DNA of 37,341 nt from a virus, in the IMG/VR virus record IMGVR_UViG_3300046328_000749, positions 1-37,341 of that record, one strand, 5' to 3'. Position 1 is the stretch's first letter, and each line of letters opens with the position of its first letter. The notes below the pieces were generated by a model. It was given only the letters and a program-made list of their open reading frames with translations. It had not been told where the DNA came from and made no database searches. The position numbers and the translations under genes were made by a program. This document shows positions 9,080 through 36,078 of this stretch, in pieces.

Positions 9080-11710
9080 ATGTCTGTAAAGTTAAAAATT
9101 AGCGGAGTATGGAAAGACATTCCAGCAATTAAATTAAAGGTCGGCGGAGTTTGGAAAAATGTAGCCGCAGGATACTTAAAGGTAAGTGGAGTATGGAAAC
9201 AATTTTTTTCCTATGGTGGAATTACTCCAACCATTCAAACCAGAGTAACCATATCTACTAATACAACAACATTTTCTTCTAGCAATCCACCAGTATTAAC
9301 TGGAAGGTTTTATCATTGGTACAACGCAACAACTTATACATATAAATTCCAAAGCTCATCAGATGGAAATAATTGGATTGATTGCACAGGAACAATGTTT
9401 TTTACCCCAAATGCTTCAAACCCTTCAGTTGGTGCAAGTTCTATAGTTACCGCAGAGGTACAGTCCACAGATCTGCTTTCAACATCAACATATTTTAGAT
9501 TTGTTGTAACTGCAGTAAATACAGCTGATGGCGGATCTGCAAGTGCAAACTCAGTTAGCACAAGCATTTCTATAACATATTCCCCGCCAGGAACCCCAAC
9601 AGGGCTGCACCAAAATGTTGACCTTAGTGGATACACAGCAATTAGAATGGAATGGAATTCGCAATCAGATGCAGACTATTTTGAATACTATGCATCATCT
9701 TCAAACTCTTTACCATCAAACCCAACAGCTATAGGCCCAGTTACAGGATCATTTAACTATTCTGTTACTGGATCTACAACCCCAACCACATATTATTTTT
9801 GGATAAGAGCAGTCAATGGAGCAGGAACATCTGCATGGTCTTCTAGTGCATCTGGAACCGCAGTTGCCCAGCCAGAGCCTACGCCAGACCCACCTACTGG
9901 ACTATCCGTTTCATATACATACCCAAACTTTACCGTAACCTGGAACATGATTTCTGGCCTAACATATGACCTCTATTGGTCGGCTGGCCCAGGAGATGAG
10001 CCCACGTCAAATCCAGGACCTGGTGCATACTATAATGTTTCTTCTCCATGGTCGCAGGAAATTCTTGCTAACGGATACACCTCATATTATTATGTAAGAG
10101 CAGTTTATGGCACACTTAGAAGCAACTGGGCAGGCCCAGTGTCAGCTACCACTCCAAGCCTAGAGGCTCCAGCAGGAGGAAGCGTTTCGGTTTACCCTAC
10201 CTCGGGCTACTATAACATAACAACCTTTTCTGCCTCGGCCTCTGGATGGACTGGATCTGGAACTATCTCATACACATATGATTGGCAGTATTTAAATTCA
10301 AGTTTTTATTGGGTGTCGTACGCATCGGGATCAACATTTGAACCGCCAGGAAGCTTATCTTCCGCCTATGCCTGGAGGGTAAAGGTTACAGCTTCAAATG
10401 GTGTTTCTCCAAACGGTATTGCATACGCTGACTTTACTGTAAATAATTATCCAGTTCCGTCAGGTGGCTCGGTCACCCTTTCTGGAGACGGTGCAGCAGG
10501 ATCTACTATAACCGCTACAACCTCAGGTTGGAGCGGAAGCCCAACATCTTATGAGGTTTATTTGTATGCTGGAACAAATGGATCATCATTTCCAGTTCTA
10601 AAAAATTCTTCATCTAGCAACAGCGTATCTTATACAATTACAACAAGCGATGCTTCTGCTCCAGCATATATATTTAAAGCATATGCAACGGCATCAAATG
10701 CAGGTGGTACATCTTCTCAAGTTGAATCAAATACCATCACTTCTTATCTGCCAAAGCCATCTGGGGGGTCGGTATCTCTTTCTGGAAGCGGAGTTGCTGG
10801 AACAGATATAACCGCTACAACCTCAGGTTGGAGCGGAAGCCCAACATCTTATAGCTTGACTATATGGGCAGGCACATCAGATGGAATATGGACTGTTCAA
10901 AAAGCTACAACAACTAGCAGCAGCCTAAGCTACACAGTAACTACTGGAGATGCCTCTTACCCTCCATACTATTTTGTTGCAATTGCGTCAGCTACAAACG
11001 CTTACGGAACATCGTCAACAATTGTATCCTCCTCAATTCTTTCATCATTACCAGCTATCAACACAATTAATACAATCAACACAATTAATACAATCAACAC
11101 AATTAATACAATCAACACAATTAATACAATCAACACAATTAATACAATCAACACAATTGCAACTATTAATACTATTAACACTATTAATACTATTAATACT
11201 ATTAATACAATTGATACAGGTGGAGGGTGCCACGTATTTGGTACGGAGATATTAATGTCTGACGGATCATGGAAAAACATTGAAGATCTTTACATAGGTG
11301 ACGAAATTATGGGAGCCGATGTTCCAGGTGTGCCAGATGATGAATATGCCAACTATCTTGACTCATGGGAGCAGAATGATATATCATCTACTACAATGGT
11401 TCCTTCAACAGTGCTTAACGTAATTGAAAGAACTTATGGAAGATATTATAATATTAATAACGGAATTAAGATAACATGGGAGCACCCAATTCCTTACATG
11501 AGAGACGGCGTTTGGAGATTTGGGATAGTGGATAATTTGCAGATTGGTGACAGTATCATGGACCATGAGCTTAACATTGTTGAGGTTGTGTCAAAGGAAG
11601 AAGTTTATGAAGATGTAAATACAATATCTATTGATATTGATACAAAGGATATTTACTTTACAAGAGGGTTGATGGCTCACAATATTATTGGAGGAGGAGG
11701 AAAGGTATGA
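9080..11710 (+). CDS. tail fibre/adhesin with Ig/FN3-like repeats, (INT)n linker and C-terminal Hint domain
   Basis: 876 residues in modules. Residues 1-45 carry three 'LK(I/V)(S/G)GVWK' repeats, a common phage fibre N-terminus. About 50-650 holds Ig/FN3-like domains, Ser/Thr-rich ('TPTGLHQNVDLSGYTAIRMEWN', 'PDPPTGLSVSY') with two near-identical 100-residue modules. Residues 660-713 are 18 triplets: 16 Ile-Asn-Thr, one Ile-Ala-Thr, one Ile-Asp-Thr. Residues 717-868 match a Hint (intein/Hedgehog-like) domain. Cys717 starts block A ('CHVFGTEILMSDGSWKNIED', 'GDEIMG'), 'TWEH' (T799, H802) is block B, and 'IYFTRGLMAHN' (H867-N868) is the C-terminal block. The residue after HN is Ile, not Cys/Ser/Thr, so ordinary splicing is unlikely; N-terminal cleavage or thioester chemistry is possible. 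It is likely host-contacting and self-processing. The function of processing is unknown. Confidence 0.75.
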   Translation: MSVKLKISGVWKDIPAIKLKVGGVWKNVAAGYLKVSGVWKQFFSYGGITPTIQTRVTISTNTTTFSSSNPPVLTGRFYHWYNATTYTYKFQSSSDGNNWIDCTGTMFFTPNASNPSVGASSIVTAEVQSTDLLSTSTYFRFVVTAVNTADGGSASANSVSTSISITYSPPGTPTGLHQNVDLSGYTAIRMEWNSQSDADYFEYYASSSNSLPSNPTAIGPVTGSFNYSVTGSTTPTTYYFWIRAVNGAGTSAWSSSASGTAVAQPEPTPDPPTGLSVSYTYPNFTVTWNMISGLTYDLYWSAGPGDEPTSNPGPGAYYNVSSPWSQEILANGYTSYYYVRAVYGTLRSNWAGPVSATTPSLEAPAGGSVSVYPTSGYYNITTFSASASGWTGSGTISYTYDWQYLNSSFYWVSYASGSTFEPPGSLSSAYAWRVKVTASNGVSPNGIAYADFTVNNYPVPSGGSVTLSGDGAAGSTITATTSGWSGSPTSYEVYLYAGTNGSSFPVLKNSSSSNSVSYTITTSDASAPAYIFKAYATASNAGGTSSQVESNTITSYLPKPSGGSVSLSGSGVAGTDITATTSGWSGSPTSYSLTIWAGTSDGIWTVQKATTTSSSLSYTVTTGDASYPPYYFVAIASATNAYGTSSTIVSSSILSSLPAINTINTINTINTINTINTINTINTINTINTINTIATINTINTINTINTINTIDTGGGCHVFGTEILMSDGSWKNIEDLYIGDEIMGADVPGVPDDEYANYLDSWEQNDISSTTMVPSTVLNVIERTYGRYYNINNGIKITWEHPIPYMRDGVWRFGIVDNLQIGDSIMDHELNIVEVVSKEEVYEDVNTISIDIDTKDIYFTRGLMAHNIIGGGGKV
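10507..10552 (+). repeat. 46-base direct repeat, copy 1
   Basis: Identical to 10807-10852, exactly 300 bases (100 codons) away in the same frame. It encodes 'TATTSGWSGSPTSY' in two adjacent Ig-like modules of the fibre gene. The perfect identity within otherwise diverged modules points to recent duplication or gene conversion. Confidence 0.9.
10807..10852 (+). repeat. 46-base direct repeat, copy 2
   Basis: Second copy of the repeat at 10507-10552, with no mismatches over 46 bases. Flanking bases differ on both sides. Recombination between copies would remove or add one 300-base module without shifting the frame. Confidence 0.9.
11057..11218 (+). repeat. coding minisatellite of Ile-Asn-Thr triplets
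   Basis: Eighteen 9-base units. The first eleven (11057-11155) strictly alternate ATCAACACA and ATTAATACA, that is an 18-base unit in 5.5 perfect copies. After one odd Ile-Ala-Thr unit, 11165-11209 uses a different spelling (ATTAATACT type), and the last unit encodes Ile-Asp-Thr. The array sits between the Ig-like modules and the Hint domain. Copy-number changes keep the frame, so linker length could vary. The antisense ORFs over it are artefacts of the repeat. Confidence 0.95.
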
Positions 11711-12291
11711 TAGTAGAAAAGCTTGATGACTACATTTATGTATACAAAAACGTTATGGATGAGCAGGTAGATATAATTGAAGAATTAAGCTATATATTTA
11801 ATACATACGATAAAGACTTTTTGCCTGCTACAATAAATAATCATGACTACAACACGTCTCTAAGGTCATGCACAGTTTTTTCTTTATTTTGTGAAGCATT
11901 AACTGATAGTAAAGAGTACAGGGAGTCTAAATATTTTTTAGATAAAAAAATTAGTGAAAGATTGTCAAAGTCTATATTTCATTATATTAAAAACACAGGC
12001 ATTAAAATAAAAGAGCGTGAGCCATGGGAGATATTAAAATACTCAGAAACGCAGGACCTAACTTGGCACTCAGATAATGGAGATCCTCATCCATGCACAC
12101 TGTCATTTGTTTATTATTTTAATGACGACTATGTTGGAGGAGAAATACAATTTAAAGATAAAATAGGATCTACTGCTTACAAGCCAGAGGCCAATAGCTT
12201 AATCATTTTCCCTTCAAGCATAGACTTTGTACATAGAGTCCTTCCAATCCAGTTTGGGACAAAATACGCAGCCATATCGTTTGGTAAATAG
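11707..12291 (+). CDS. 2OG-Fe(II) oxygenase, prolyl-4-hydroxylase-like
   Basis: 194 residues. The iron-binding triad of the 2-oxoglutarate/Fe(II) dioxygenase fold is visible: H121-x-D123 ('TWHSDNGD') and H176 ('DFVHRV'). Lys186 ('GTKYAAISF') stands about ten residues later, where an Arg or Lys normally binds the 2OG carboxylate. Between them 'LSFVYYFNDDYVGGEIQF' is typical of prolyl-hydroxylase-like members. Family knowledge predicts hydroxylation of a protein side chain or other substrate; the real substrate is unknown. The gene overlaps the stop of the Hint-bearing fibre by four bases, so it is co-transcribed with it, and the fibre may be a substrate (inference). A second family member lies at 31658. 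Confidence 0.8.
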   Translation: MIVEKLDDYIYVYKNVMDEQVDIIEELSYIFNTYDKDFLPATINNHDYNTSLRSCTVFSLFCEALTDSKEYRESKYFLDKKISERLSKSIFHYIKNTGIKIKEREPWEILKYSETQDLTWHSDNGDPHPCTLSFVYYFNDDYVGGEIQFKDKIGSTAYKPEANSLIIFPSSIDFVHRVLPIQFGTKYAAISFGK

Positions 12292-29068: not shown

Positions 29069-29611
29069 ATGACAATGGAAATAGATCTTCCCCAGCATAT
29101 GGACAGAATGAATACTGTAGTTGAAAAATTACTGCAGGGAAATTCTGCTACTCAAATTGCTACTCTTACTGGGTTTAAACGCAATGAGGTAGTTGAGCTA
29201 ATAGGCGAGTGGAAAAATATTGTCCACAATGATAATGCTATTCGTGATCGTGCTAAAGAGGCTATATCTGGAGCAGACCAGCATTATGCTATGTTAATCA
29301 AAGAGGCATGGAAAACTGTAGAGGATGCGGACCAGACGGGCCAGCTAGGAATAAAGTCTGGCGCATTAAAGCTAATTGCAGACATTGAGACAAAAAGAAT
29401 TGCAATGCTACAGTCTGTCGGTGTTCTAGAAAACAATGAGCTTGCCACACAGCTTGCAGAAACAGAGCGAAAGCAAGAAGTTCTTGTAAAGATATTAAAA
29501 GAAGTTACTTCTACGTGTCCTAAGTGCAAGCTTGAGGTTGCAAAAAGGCTTTCCCAAATAACTGGAATCGTTGAGTCTGTTGTGATCGAGGAAGATGCAA
29601 GTGGACTTTAG
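29069..29611 (+). CDS. terS: candidate small terminase subunit
   Basis: 180 residues. The N-terminal part is a helix-turn-helix ('LLQGNSATQIATLTGFKRNEVVELIGEW'), then a long helical region ('AIRDRAKEAISGADQHYAMLIKEAWKTVED... IKSGALKLIADIETKRIAMLQ') as in TerS oligomerisation domains, and a C-terminal CxxC ('TCPKCKLEVAKRL'). It lies directly upstream of the large terminase with a 17-base overlap, the usual place. TerS recognises the packaging site and stimulates TerL. The call rests on context and architecture. It is expressed from a leaderless start. Confidence 0.7.
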   Translation: MTMEIDLPQHMDRMNTVVEKLLQGNSATQIATLTGFKRNEVVELIGEWKNIVHNDNAIRDRAKEAISGADQHYAMLIKEAWKTVEDADQTGQLGIKSGALKLIADIETKRIAMLQSVGVLENNELATQLAETERKQEVLVKILKEVTSTCPKCKLEVAKRLSQITGIVESVVIEEDASGL

Positions 29612-31406
29612 TTTTGACGACCTCATCGATATCCTGGACGGAGAAGAATTTGAAGAACGTCCAGTAGATCTAAGGACATTTGTAACGAGCCCAGATTATC
29701 TAGGGCTGCCACCTTTATCTGAGCACCAATATACATTAATTGAGAAGTCTTCTCAGATTTATAAAGAAGCCACACTCATCAAACTTTTTGGAGAAGAAGA
29801 AGGAAAGCGCATGTTTAAGCAAACATGTAATGAAGTAATTGCACAGCTAGGTAAAGGCTCAGGAAAAGATTATTCTTCTACAATTTCTACTGCCTATATT
29901 GTTTATTTATTGCTATGCCTAAAAGATCCTGCAAGTTATTATGGAAAGCCACCAGGAGACTCTATCGATATCCTCAATATTGCTATTAACGCACAACAAG
30001 CAAATAACGTTTTCTTTAAGGGCTTTAAGACACGTATTGAAAGATCGCCATGGTTTGCTGGTAAATATGATATGAAAGCTTCTGAAATGAAGTTTGATAA
30101 AGCTGTAACAGTTCACTCAGGACACTCAGAGCGTGAAGCTTGGGAGGGTTACAACGTTATCGTAGTTATCCTTGATGAAATTTCAGGCTTTGCTGTAGAG
30201 AATACAACAGGGCACGATCAAGCCAAAACAGCTGATGCAATATATGACATGTATCGTGCATCGGTAATGTCTCGTTTCCCAGACTTTGGTAAGGTCATTC
30301 TACTTTCATTTCCTCGCTTTAAGAATGATCCAATTCAAAAATTCTATGAGTCAGTAATTGGAGAAAAAGAAACTATTCTTCGTAGCCAGACTTTAAAAAT
30401 GGATAACGATCTTCCAGACGGAACAGATGGAAATGAAGTCACCGTAGAGTGGGAAGAAGATCATATTAAGTCTTATCTTTATCCTAAAACATTTGCTCTT
30501 AAAAGACCTACATGGGAAGTCAATCCAACAAAAAGCCTAGAAGACTTTAAGGTAGACTTTTACAAGAATATGCCAGATGCCTTGGGTCGCTTTGCATGTA
30601 TGCCACCAGAGATGATTGATGCTTTCTTTAAATCTAGAGAAAAAGTTGAGAGCGCCTTTAAGAATACAGCAATTGCCGTTGATCAATTTGGCAGACTTGA
30701 AGAATGGTTTAAGCCAGATCCAGATAAGAAATATTTTATTCACGTTGACCTTGCACAAAAACATGACCATTGTGCGGTATCTTTAGCACATGTAGAAAGA
30801 TGGGTTAATGTTAGAGTGACAAATGAATACACTCAGCCAGCTCCAATTGTAAGCGTTGATGCTGTCAGGTACTGGACCCCAACACCAGATAAGTCTGTTG
30901 ACTTTACTGAGGTCAAAGACTACATCCTTTCTCTTAAGACAAGGGGATTTAATATTGGAGTTTGTACCTTTGACAGATGGAACTCTCATGATATGATGCA
31001 GCAGCTTATGTCGTACGGTATTAAAACAGAGATTCTTTCAGTTGCAAAAAAACATTATGACGACATGGCAATGGTTATCCTTGAGGAAAGATTAAATGGG
31101 CCTCATATAAAACTTCTTATTGATGAATTGCTTCAGCTAAAAATTATGAGAGACAAAGTTGACCACCCTAGAAAGGGGTCAAAGGACTTGGCGGATGCTG
31201 TATGCGGATCAGTATTTAATGCAATTAGCAGAACACGGGCCAATGTAGACAATGAAATACGTGTTCATACATATGAGTCAATGATAGTAGATAACGATCT
31301 TGGCGATGATGGCAAGGAGCCAGAGGAGTATATCCAAAATATGATTAGAGCGCCAAAGATGCCAGAGCATCTTAAGGAATCAATAGAAAGCATGATGATA
31401 ATATGA
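29595..31406 (+). CDS. terL: large terminase subunit (packaging ATPase/nuclease)
   Basis: 603 residues. Walker A variant G86-KGSGKD92 ('GKGSGKD', Lys91), Walker B with catalytic Glu ('VVILDEISG', D194-E195), and motif III-type 'KVILLSFPR'. The C-terminal RNase H-like nuclease shows D385 ('HVDLAQKHDH') and D531/D534 ('KDLADAVCG'), the metal-binding acids that cut concatemers. GAGGAAG before ATG 29595 supports the start. It pumps DNA into the prohead. Neighbouring head genes are absent here, which means the packaging genes are separated from the tail module in this arrangement. Confidence 0.9.
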   Translation: MQVDFSFDDLIDILDGEEFEERPVDLRTFVTSPDYLGLPPLSEHQYTLIEKSSQIYKEATLIKLFGEEEGKRMFKQTCNEVIAQLGKGSGKDYSSTISTAYIVYLLLCLKDPASYYGKPPGDSIDILNIAINAQQANNVFFKGFKTRIERSPWFAGKYDMKASEMKFDKAVTVHSGHSEREAWEGYNVIVVILDEISGFAVENTTGHDQAKTADAIYDMYRASVMSRFPDFGKVILLSFPRFKNDPIQKFYESVIGEKETILRSQTLKMDNDLPDGTDGNEVTVEWEEDHIKSYLYPKTFALKRPTWEVNPTKSLEDFKVDFYKNMPDALGRFACMPPEMIDAFFKSREKVESAFKNTAIAVDQFGRLEEWFKPDPDKKYFIHVDLAQKHDHCAVSLAHVERWVNVRVTNEYTQPAPIVSVDAVRYWTPTPDKSVDFTEVKDYILSLKTRGFNIGVCTFDRWNSHDMMQQLMSYGIKTEILSVAKKHYDDMAMVILEERLNGPHIKLLIDELLQLKIMRDKVDHPRKGSKDLADAVCGSVFNAISRTRANVDNEIRVHTYESMIVDNDLGDDGKEPEEYIQNMIRAPKMPEHLKESIESMMII

Positions 31407-31642: not shown

Positions 31643-31651
31643 ATATATAAT
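31623..31651 (+). promoter_or_regulatory. consensus sigma70-like promoter, leaderless
   Basis: TTGACA at 31623-31628, 17-base spacer, TATAAT at 31646-31651: exact consensus at both boxes. Six bases (TTACTT) separate TATAAT from ATG 31658, so the mRNA starts at the start codon. The -35 sits inside the end of the upstream gene. Confidence 0.85.
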
Positions 31652-31657
31652 TTACTT

Positions 31658-32248
31658 ATGCAAATGCGATGGCTAGACGAAGATAATAAAATTGCTGCCT
31701 TTAATGGCATCAATGGAGTCGACTCTATCTTTAGTTTAGTTAAAGATGTCGGAAGCATGGATCGGTACAAGTGGTTTGTTTCTGAAAGAAGAGGCACAAT
31801 GTATTTGCTAGAAAGAAAAGCAAATCATGATGGGCTAGCCGTTGTACTGCATGAAAATTTAGAGATATTGTTTAAAACAGTTTATCGTGAGTTTTTGAAT
31901 ACATTGGGCGAATCAGGATTTTCTCCAAGACCAAATTTTGTTATTGCAAATATTCAAAAGTATGAAGCATTTATGTCTCATCAAGATGTTAATCTTGACG
32001 AAGAAACTAATGTTTTAGCAGGATATGTTGCGATGTACTATCTAAATGATGATTTTGAAGGCGGAGAACTTTATTTTGACAAGCTTGGCTTATCGTATAA
32101 GCCAGTGGCTGGAGAAGTAGTCGTGTTTCCATATAACTTATGGCATAGGGTGAAGTCAGTTGAAGGCGGAGATAGATATACAGCGATGATACTTATAGAA
32201 AAATATATAGATAGCTCAGTTGCAAGTACGCCAGATCTTTGGCCGTAA
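31658..32248 (+). CDS. second 2OG-Fe(II) oxygenase
   Basis: 196 residues. Triad and 2OG-binding residues are complete: H108-x-D110 ('SHQDVNL'), H163 ('LWHRV') and R173 ('GDRYTAM'), with 'GYVAMYYLNDDFEGGELYF' between. This is the prolyl-hydroxylase-like type, related to but diverged from the gene at 11707 (both share 'YYxNDD(Y/F)xGGE'). It has the strongest promoter in the window and lies directly before tRNA-CAU. The substrate is unknown; the phage may hydroxylate a protein or sugar. Leaderless start, no ribosome site. Confidence 0.85.
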   Translation: MQMRWLDEDNKIAAFNGINGVDSIFSLVKDVGSMDRYKWFVSERRGTMYLLERKANHDGLAVVLHENLEILFKTVYREFLNTLGESGFSPRPNFVIANIQKYEAFMSHQDVNLDEETNVLAGYVAMYYLNDDFEGGELYFDKLGLSYKPVAGEVVVFPYNLWHRVKSVEGGDRYTAMILIEKYIDSSVASTPDLWP

Positions 32249-33726: not shown

Positions 33727-34628
33727 ACTCTAGATTTGATATCAAAAAAAATAATAACTTTAAATTAGTTTTACCAAACAGAGGTCATGAGTACGAGATT
33801 GATGGCGATTACTTAGAGCATAAAAATGTATCGTATAAAATAAACTCAAACGGTTACCGTGGTGAAGATATTGATGGAGTTTCCGACCTAATGACCCTTG
33901 GTTGCTCGTTTACATTTGGAGTTGGCTTGCCAGAAGAAAAGGTTTGGCCAAGCTTACTTGCAGAAAAAATGGGAATGTCTTTAGTAAATTTAGCTAGTCC
34001 TGGGGATTCGGCTATGGGTCAGATAAGAAAAGCTTTTGACTATTTTTCAATTCATGGACACCCTAAAGTAATAGTTTGCTTATTTCCTACACTTAGAATA
34101 GAAATTCCCATAAAGCCAGATCGTCTTTTCCCTAAAAATATGAGCAAAGATAACTATGACCCTATAGCAAAAATTGAGGTTAGAGTTAATGATAGTAAAT
34201 ACGCTAAGGCTCCATTTGATCCGTGTGAAATTTTAACCCCAGAGGTGCCATTTTATTATACACACATGATGATACGTATGCTTGAGCAGTACTGTGAATC
34301 ACACGGGATAAAATTAGTATGGTCTGTGTGGGAAGATTTCTATAAAGATGTTTATAGATTTGTTCAAGCAATTGATTTGAATGTTTATAAGAATTTTTGC
34401 GAGCTATCATTTTCTAAATGGAGTAGACAAATTGAAAATGGTGTCTTGAAGGAATATAAAAATCATGAGCTATCTGTTACCTGTCACAATGAATACCAAG
34501 ACGATTTCTTTTTTCATTCTGCATCGGATACGTTTCATGGAATAGATCAGACGCATGCTGGATTCCACAGGAATATACATATTTCAGAAGAATTTTATGA
34601 CTTTATTAAAAAAGATTTAAATGTCTAA
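33723..34628 (+). CDS. SGNH/GDSL-like hydrolase, paralogue 2
   Basis: 301 residues, ATGA overlap with paralogue 1. The same blocks appear in the same order: 'LMTLGCSFTFGVGLPEE', 'NLASPGDSAMGQIRKAFDYF', 'HGHPKVIVCLFPTLR', and the C-terminal 'HAGFHRNIHISEEFYDF'. The two proteins share these core motifs but differ in length and in the middle, so the duplication is old. They may form a pair acting on the same glycan. The gene overlaps the carbamoyltransferase by 8 bases. Confidence 0.7.
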   Translation: MNSRFDIKKNNNFKLVLPNRGHEYEIDGDYLEHKNVSYKINSNGYRGEDIDGVSDLMTLGCSFTFGVGLPEEKVWPSLLAEKMGMSLVNLASPGDSAMGQIRKAFDYFSIHGHPKVIVCLFPTLRIEIPIKPDRLFPKNMSKDNYDPIAKIEVRVNDSKYAKAPFDPCEILTPEVPFYYTHMMIRMLEQYCESHGIKLVWSVWEDFYKDVYRFVQAIDLNVYKNFCELSFSKWSRQIENGVLKEYKNHELSVTCHNEYQDDFFFHSASDTFHGIDQTHAGFHRNIHISEEFYDFIKKDLNV

Positions 34629-36078
34629 GCCTAGAGTTATAGCTGGAGTAAGCGAAGGTTTTCATGATGCATCATTTTGTATTATTTCAAATGGAAAAAT
34701 ATTGTACGCAGGCCATGCTGAAAGATATAGCAAGCTTAAAAATGATCCCGTCCTAAATAAAAATATAATAGACGATGCAATTCTTTCATCTGGCTTCACT
34801 CCTGATATTATTGCATACTATGAAAGCCCAGTATTAAAAAAAATAAGACTTAAGGTACATGGCGGGATCAATGATAGCCAAAGATACATTGATAAAAAAG
34901 TATTCCCAAGCGCAAAAAGAGTTAACGTTAGTCACCATAAATCTCATGCAGCAGCAGGCTACTATACGAGTAAATTTAATGATGCATGTATAGTTGTACT
35001 AGACGCTATTGGTGAGTTTAATACATCTACCATATGGGTTGGAGAAGATAGTAAATTAAAGAAGGTTTATTCTCAAAACTATCCAGTCAGCTTTGGTTTA
35101 TTCTATTCTGCTTTTACGCAGCTTTTGGGCTTAATGCCAAACCAAGAAGAATATATTATGATGGGAATGGCGGCCTACGGAGACTACAAAAAGCACTATG
35201 AAAAAGTAAATAAGTATTTTCCTTCAATAAATAATCAATCATATAATTTTCATAAGGGCATATCTGACTGGGGATCGATTGAATCAGAGCAGGATAAATT
35301 TGATATAGCTGCCTCAGTTCAAATGGTTTATAGGCAAAGATTAATTGAGTTTATGAGATTTGCAAGAGCCAAAACAGGCAAAGATAATTTAGTGTTTATG
35401 GGTGGATGCGCTTTAAACTCATCGGCAAATACTGCCCTATGGGACATATTCAATGATGTTTGGATAATGCCAAACCCAGGTGATGCTGGAAGCTCAATAG
35501 GTGCAGCAGCAGCTGTTTATGGAAAGCATTTAGATTGGGACGGTCCTTACCTAGGATATGATTTAAGTAACGTTTATCCAGAAGATGAGATAATCAATGC
35601 ATTGATTAACGACAAGGTTGCACCAGTTGCATCAGGCAAAGCAGAGTTTGGACCAAGAGCCTTGGGTAATAGATCAATCCTAGCTGATCCAAGAGATCCA
35701 GATATAAAAGACAAAGTAAATTTAATTAAACAAAGAGAGCTTTTTAGGCCATTTGCACCAGTTGTAATGGAGGAGTTTGCTCATGAGTGGTTCGATATGC
35801 CAGATAACTCTACAAGTCCATATATGCAGTACACATTTAAATGCTTAAGGCCAGAACTTATACCCTCTGTTGTTCATAAGGATGGGACTTCAAGAGTTCA
35901 AACAGTAAATAAGGAACAGCACCCAGGTCTATACAGCGTTCTCTCACGATGGAATGACATAACTGGAGTTCCAGTATTATTAAATACAAGTCTAAATATT
36001 AAAGGGCAGCCTTTACTAAATGACGAAAATGATATAAAATTATGGGAAGATTCATATAGTACAAAGATATGCAGATAG
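34621..36078 (+). CDS. NodU/CmcH-type carbamoyltransferase
   Basis: 485 residues, slightly shorter than the family's usual about 550-600. N-terminal 'GVSEGFHDASFCIISNGKILYAGHAERYSKLKND' (H15) and 'VSHHKSHAAAGYY' (H105, H106, H109) match the Kae1-like fold that binds carbamoyl-adenylate and Fe; 'VFMGGCALNSSANTALW', 'PNPGDAGSSIGAA' and the C-terminal 'FGPRALGNRSILADPRDP' are hallmark NodU motifs. 'FRPFAPVVMEEFAHEWF' and 'TGVPVLLNTSLNIKGQP' complete the domain. It moves a carbamoyl group from carbamoyl phosphate to a hydroxyl of a sugar or other small molecule. In this operon with two SGNH proteins it likely decorates a glycan or a modified base. The protein may end early relative to the family. 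Confidence 0.85.
   Translation: MSKPRVIAGVSEGFHDASFCIISNGKILYAGHAERYSKLKNDPVLNKNIIDDAILSSGFTPDIIAYYESPVLKKIRLKVHGGINDSQRYIDKKVFPSAKRVNVSHHKSHAAAGYYTSKFNDACIVVLDAIGEFNTSTIWVGEDSKLKKVYSQNYPVSFGLFYSAFTQLLGLMPNQEEYIMMGMAAYGDYKKHYEKVNKYFPSINNQSYNFHKGISDWGSIESEQDKFDIAASVQMVYRQRLIEFMRFARAKTGKDNLVFMGGCALNSSANTALWDIFNDVWIMPNPGDAGSSIGAAAAVYGKHLDWDGPYLGYDLSNVYPEDEIINALINDKVAPVASGKAEFGPRALGNRSILADPRDPDIKDKVNLIKQRELFRPFAPVVMEEFAHEWFDMPDNSTSPYMQYTFKCLRPELIPSVVHKDGTSRVQTVNKEQHPGLYSVLSRWNDITGVPVLLNTSLNIKGQPLLNDENDIKLWEDSYSTKICR

Follow-up and report, generated by a model that had tools for sequence, protein, structure and literature searches.

Bacterial intein-like (BIL) domains were recognised two decades ago, and there is little agreement on their natural purpose. 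In the related hedgehog C-terminal autoprocessing domain (1at0) the terminal His-Asn (HN) is absent, a sterol-recognition region follows the Hint core and the nucleophile is a sterol. BIL domains that lack a nucleophile at the +1 position are known to cleave and some have been reported to splice (PMC7664689 and works it cites), while BUBL1 BIL2, from the polyubiquitin-like locus of the ciliate Tetrahymena thermophila, is reported to form an isopeptide between a C-terminus and a Lys epsilon-amine in an ATP-free manner and to be able to pass ubl4 to various substrates (PMC8616854). BUBL1 BIL2 is located between two ubiquitin-like domains, and the Lys lies in the folded ubl5.

We found a BIL-like Hint domain at the C-terminus of a tail-fibre-like protein that is encoded in a 37,341-nucleotide stretch of viral DNA (IMG/VR record IMGVR_UViG_3300046328_000749, hereafter the window; Table 1). 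This domain shares with A-type BILs the Hint fold, the N-terminal Cys, the block B TxxH, the C-terminal His-Asn, the lack of a conserved +1 nucleophile and the variability of the host proteins, but unlike these it is found in phage fibres, with few exceptions right at the C-terminus and followed by a Lys in the tail, and its activity is predicted. Like BUBL1 BIL2, its best structural match, it sits after the C-terminus of the protein that would be processed and has a Lys (Lys875) in the C-side sequence, yet this C-side comprises eight residues instead of a folded ubiquitin-like domain. The Clostridium thermocellum BIL (2lwy) has the fold in common with the fibre domain, but is part of a bacterial protein without a fibre context. 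With hedgehog the fibre domain has in common the fold, the (predicted) thioester at the N-junction and the C-terminal position, but it does carry the HN, and the protein ends eight residues later.

Table 1. Coordinates of the Hint-ended fibre gene, its elements and the adjoining oxygenase gene in the window.
Feature	Position	Strand	Basis
Tail-fibre-like protein, 876 aa, with C-terminal Hint domain	9080..11710	+	ORF
Tandem repeat (9/18 bases) coding for (Asn-Thr-Ile)n linker, just before Hint	11057..11218	+	TRF
Gly714-Gly716, end of N-extein; G716-C717 is the predicted scissile bond	11219..11227	+	sequence
Hint domain (BIL-like), Cys717 to Asn868, 152 residues	11228..11683	+	profile, structure, relatives
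Cys717, block A nucleophile	11228..11230	+	Cys conserved in 33/35 distinct relatives
Block B T-x-x-H, Thr799-Trp-Glu-His802 (TWEH)	11474..11485	+	Thr 31/35, His 32/35
Block F Asp857 (D-I-Y-F)	11648..11650	+	Asp 33/35
Block G His867-Asn868	11678..11683	+	HN 34/35
Eight-residue C-tail IIGGGGKV, then stop	11684..11707	+	unconserved apart from Lys
Lys875, proposed nucleophile (inferred)	11702..11704	+	tail-Lys pattern; BUBL1 BIL2 precedent
2OG-Fe(II) oxygenase gene, start overlaps fibre stop (ATGA)	11707..12291	+	PF13640, E 1.5e-12

The Hint domain at residues 717-868 is real and not a chance resemblance, as confirmed by profile searches in which the domain alone matched Pfam PF05203 (Hom_end_hint) with E 2.6e-7 and 31.3 bits, a score just below the Pfam cut-off of 32.1, and PHROG 38766 ('virion structural protein') with E 7e-11 over domain residues 1-152. 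Near-full-length tblastn matches of the domain were detected in 52 phage records, and sequence matches in the PDB, to a BIL domain and to PI-SceI, carry little weight by themselves (E about 0.1). With 152 residues only, the domain has no homing endonuclease region. Residues 1-54 of the fibre match PHROG 25859 (E 2.4e-11), residues 158-258 give a weak Pfam match to fn3 (E 1e-4) and the genes upstream match tail and minor tail PHROGs, while the Pfam scan of the fibre returned no ubiquitin-like domain upstream of the Hint domain.

A sequence-only reading of the locus had located Cys717, the TWEH motif and the terminal His-Asn correctly, and had rightly noted that Cys, Ser and Thr are missing at +1 and that just eight residues remain. 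It had also described Gly-rich flanks on both sides, which is accurate for the three Gly before the Cys, while the GGGG starts two residues after the HN (HN-II-GGGG); because this Gly run is not conserved, being absent from all relatives, the accompanying idea of a re-joined ancestral splice product fails. A standard intein can be ruled out, as Ile869 at +1 is not a nucleophile and there is no C-extein (eight unconserved residues). Nonetheless, to state that normal splicing is blocked was too strong, since BILs without a +1 nucleophile cleave and some reportedly splice (PMC7664689) and BUBL1 BIL2 ligates to Lys (PMC8616854). The suggestion that the domain performs cleavage or thioester transfer is plausible, and N-terminal thioester chemistry is the most likely role.

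An AlphaFold2 model of the domain built from 23 phage relatives (pLDDT 89.2, pTM 0.84) adopts a Hint fold with disordered flanks, and a model of the (NTI)n linker together with the Hint domain showed the linker at low confidence and devoid of regular structure. Foldseek ranked Tetrahymena BUBL1 BIL2 and a Clostridium BIL on top (E 4e-9 to 1e-8), followed by inteins and hedgehog. Structural alignment with VIA-align gave Z scores between 14 and 20 for BIL, intein and hedgehog structures: 19.8 for BUBL1 BIL2 (6y75/6tmm; 140 residues, 1.8 A, 19% identity), 18.2 for 2lwy (131 residues, 1.6 A, 24% identity), 14-18 for inteins, with phage inteins among those resembled, and 16.8 for hedgehog. As rows within 1 Z unit count as ties, the assignment to BILs rather than inteins is based chiefly on the absence of a +1 nucleophile and on the architecture. 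The domain has an ordinary fold, is of a known kind and is apparently intact.

The catalytic residues are near-universal among 35 distinct domains (counts in Table 1), and both Cys717 and His802, whose loss in close relatives would have spoken against a Hint domain, are retained there. By contrast, the +1 residue is variable (I, K, A, N, L, Y, F, Q, V, M, T, S or G), and Gly precedes the Cys in 19/35 relatives, with Ser, Thr, Leu, Gln or Lys in the others. The domain is under purifying selection, with dN/dS values of 0.07-0.23 among six near relatives (Nei-Gojobori; given only where dS could be estimated, with one pair saturated and dS above about 1.5 rough), and the C-tails show mostly 0.4-0.7 nonsynonymous differences per site over their few codons. 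Exceptions include L027, in which Cys1, TxxH and HN are all gone and the fold is kept as judged by profile match, as well as NCTB BN7874_135 and L152, which have lost Cys1 and still possess the HN. The converse, Cys1 kept and HN lost, was seen in L150, L151 and L156, which may possibly perform N-cleavage only. These three are second Hint-ended proteins in the L009, L014 and L012 contigs, respectively (L150, 614-2023 on the minus strand; L151, 620-2005; L156, 548-1930), and have no C-terminal Lys. Free-standing degenerate Hint ORFs without Cys1 also exist (L005, 744-1205; L104, 3492-4112; L086, 3466-4152), each adjoining an intact Hint-ended protein upstream, in phages that are unrelated. The Hint domain is probably catalytic.

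A survey of related phages revealed that the C-terminal placement of the Hint domain recurs. One scan with the single domain and another with four sequences identified near relatives (about 50-60% identity) from approximately 12 distinct phages; in each, a large fibre-like protein terminates in the domain, which follows a low-complexity linker. One alignment offered no segment with enough conservation to scan a collection with. The linkers are unlike between phages, comprising (NTI)n, (IAT)n, (GGSTNS)n, (PPxFF)n and QNTQVASPPAP-type sequences. Across the relatives, in which (GFTPF)n occurs too, they are tandem repeats whose composition varies as though low complexity and length alone counted. 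Among distant relatives, C-terminal Hint domains occur in virion proteins of Erwinia, Dickeya and Yersinia jumbo phages, in the Alcaligenes and Salmonella records Afa-NA1 and Sen-NF, in phage NCTB, which has three Hint-ended proteins in tandem, in an uncultured 484-kb phage, in marine phages with two Hint-ended proteins and in a PASTA-domain family. The jumbo-phage and NCTB proteins (PHROG 38766; 24-33% domain identity) resemble the fibre in their C-terminal placement and in ending with HN plus 3-10 residues including Lys, but have collagen-like or other bodies and no adjoining 2OG oxygenase gene. Some Hint-ended fibres (L014, 3358-6489; L085, 2641-3624) feature Listeria-Bacteroides (Flg_new) repeats or a PASTA domain, modules that are typical of cell-wall and surface proteins. 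In a marine family (L053-L063) the Hint domain is internal, and HN-K-GG leads there into a C-extein of roughly 100 residues that is Fn3-like.

Several of these relatives are already annotated as 'intein domain' or 'Hint domain' proteins (for example 'large intein domain protein'), hence Hint-ended phage proteins are not new as such, and such a fibre end, which the sequence-only reading had called unusual for a phage, occurs in many. A scan of 84,980 bacterial and archaeal genomes yielded no relatives of the domain at the sensitivity of that scan, and among plasmids the matches were limited to HINT of polymorphic toxins and a calcium-binding protein, at 24-27% identity, and to a single partial match that spans 31 residues. 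In the literature searched, which includes few of the subscription journals, we found no paper on the function of Hint-ended phage proteins, and searches for Hint or intein domains in tail fibres returned only inteins of TerL, ribonucleotide reductase and minor head proteins.

Apart from the Fn3 families and L152, every family has just 1-12 residues after an intact HN. These short tails share neither length nor sequence (e.g. ISEKQQVE, LSAKT or K), but they share a Lys, a feature that the sequence-only reading had not mentioned. Each of the 41 distinct short tails that follow an intact HN (distinct at <90% domain identity) contains Lys, against an expectation of 18.4 derived from C-termini of matching length in 512 neighbouring ORFs. 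This control may misrepresent fibre ends that are exposed, since a charged residue there could shield from proteases. The pattern persists upon dereplication to <70% (25/25), <50% (16/16, product p 8.5e-8), <40% (12/12, p 1.3e-5) and <35% identity (10/10, p 6.6e-5), p values that assume independence between the dereplicated families, an assumption that holds only approximately. No other residue is enriched comparably, the next ones being far behind. Exactly one Lys is found in 17/20 representative tails, at positions from +1 to +11, and shuffling residues among the tails reproduced Lys in all 20 in none of 20,000 trials; together with the neighbouring-ORF comparison, this shows that a general richness of C-termini in Lys is insufficient as a cause. 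In five near relatives the Lys is fixed at +4 while the remaining tail residues vary, and in the PASTA family the tail is a single Lys (HN-K-stop). Conversely, the three HN-lost domains that passed the filters have no Lys (Fisher p 7.6e-5, uncorrected for relatedness). The Lys pattern was first spotted in the data, before the hypothesis and the test were set down. Loci that were fetched after the test had been written down agree with it (HN-KH in LR756508; HN-K in L104, L109, L153 and L154), although this independent test is small, since the only new families are LR756508 and, loosely, L152 with its long C-extein.

A Lys that is ever-present at variable distance after the Asn, and absent where the Asn is lost, fits a flexible nucleophile. 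Given the linkage of a Gly C-terminus to a Lys epsilon-amine that has been reported for BUBL1 BIL2, and given the tail-Lys pattern, we tentatively favour a reading in which an active Hint domain resembling A-type BILs processes the fibre C-terminus and the tail Lys forms an isopeptide. Cys717, aided by Thr799 and His802, would convert the Gly716-Cys717 bond into a thioester by an N-S shift, at which stage the fibre body would bear a terminal Gly-Gly-Gly. The epsilon-amine of a C-tail Lys, either Lys875 in cis or one from a neighbouring fibre subunit, would then attack the thioester to give a Gly-Lys isopeptide, and cyclisation of Asn868 with the help of His867 would release the Hint domain. 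With Gly716 as its new terminus, the mature fibre would carry a Lys-bearing peptide as a cap or be joined through it. Such processing would most likely serve to mature the fibre tip or to join it covalently. Several points argue against this reading: the cis product would bear only a tiny branched peptide, the Gly at -1 is not universal in the aligned relatives, and the Cys1-less NCTB BN7874_135 and L152 retain the Lys after the HN.

Among other explanations, hydrolytic self-cleavage only, in which the Hint domain cuts itself off at both its N- and C-terminal junctions, like classical A-type BILs, to mature the tip, water ends the thioester and the Lys is otherwise used, is unlikely but survives best. 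A-type BILs are reported to yield mainly cleaved products (PMC7664689, PMC7765530), every residue required for cleavage is present and a tail of 1-12 residues cannot serve as a useful extein, yet hydrolysis leaves unexplained why the tail Lys is universal and why it is absent where the HN is lost. We consider it rather improbable that the activated Gly716 is transferred in trans to a putative acceptor, an amine or hydroxyl on another virion protein, a neighbouring subunit or the host surface, in a conjugation resembling that of ubiquitin or sortase: while ubl4 is passed on by BUBL1 BIL2 to further substrates, Ras among them (PMC8616854), Gly-rich ends before the Hint domain are common in the relatives and the fibres contain modules of the cell-wall or adhesion type (fn3, PASTA), the conserved HN and tail Lys indicate a reaction in cis as well.

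Still more doubtful is a removable domain for folding or trimerisation that is there to remove itself once the fibre is assembled, as the S74 intramolecular chaperone does in other tail fibres. S74 domains act in this manner in phage fibres (PMC7824862) and are likewise self-removing C-terminal fibre domains, the Hint domain is always placed at or near the C-terminus of fibre-like proteins after low-complexity linkers, and L027 keeps the fold with all catalytic residues gone; however, near-universal catalytic residues are more than a passive fold needs, S74 is an unrelated family with a Ser/Lys dyad and the Pfam scan of the fibre gave no S74 match. Finally, that the domain is a decaying selfish intein with no function for the fibre is most improbable, as the similarity of the fold to phage inteins and the few dead copies (L027, L150, L151) are outweighed by the low dN/dS and retained catalytic residues, the lack of a homing endonuclease region and of a C-extein, and the Ser or Thr that canonical inteins in the same scan carry at +1.

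The gene that overlaps the fibre stop, also missing from the sequence-only reading, encodes a 2OG-Fe(II) oxygenase. A reciprocal scan identified 11 distinct close relatives of the oxygenase, two of which are truncated where their contig ends. The close relatives lie directly behind a Hint-ended fibre in 17/17 contigs that show the upstream region, and two distant relatives, in L085 and L086, are near a PASTA-Hint protein. As the oxygenase is absent from L009 and from all jumbo phages, it is an accessory of one clade. That it modifies the fibre protein in the clade of the window is a reasonable guess, no more, and an action on the repeat linker is not favoured, as the linkers ahead of the oxygenase genes differ completely. 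As far as the literature was searched, the tail-Lys rule and the linkage to the oxygenase are undescribed. Oxygenase genes also occur in tandem, three in L014 (6474-8201) and two in L024 (2875-4065), and a second ORF that weakly matches the same 2OG oxygenase profile (E 7e-8) is located near the end of the window (31643-32248). The window additionally encodes a Nol-like carbamoyltransferase (34621-36078; PHROG 1601, E 2e-99) and a 603-residue ORF (29595-31406) with two stretches that match terminase large subunit PHROGs, either a divergent terminase or an insertion.

At its broadest, and with clear reservations, our proposal is a widespread phage system in which a C-terminal Hint domain would link the Gly-rich end of a fibre, through an ATP-free isopeptide, to a Lys of that fibre's tail, of an adjacent subunit or of a partner, yielding covalently joined or capped tips. 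One clade would have added a dedicated oxygenase of the 2OG-Fe(II) type, with the fibre or the Lys as possible target of hydroxylation. This large phage family places a BIL-like domain at the end of a receptor-binding-type fibre, between Gly residues on one side and a stub that bears a Lys on the other, providing a concrete setting in which the function of such a domain can be tested by a single substitution. If the Lys is the nucleophile, these phages would possess a virion-borne, enzyme-free analogue of ubiquitin-type conjugation, and the domain would be a compact ligation tool that requires just a short Lys tag.
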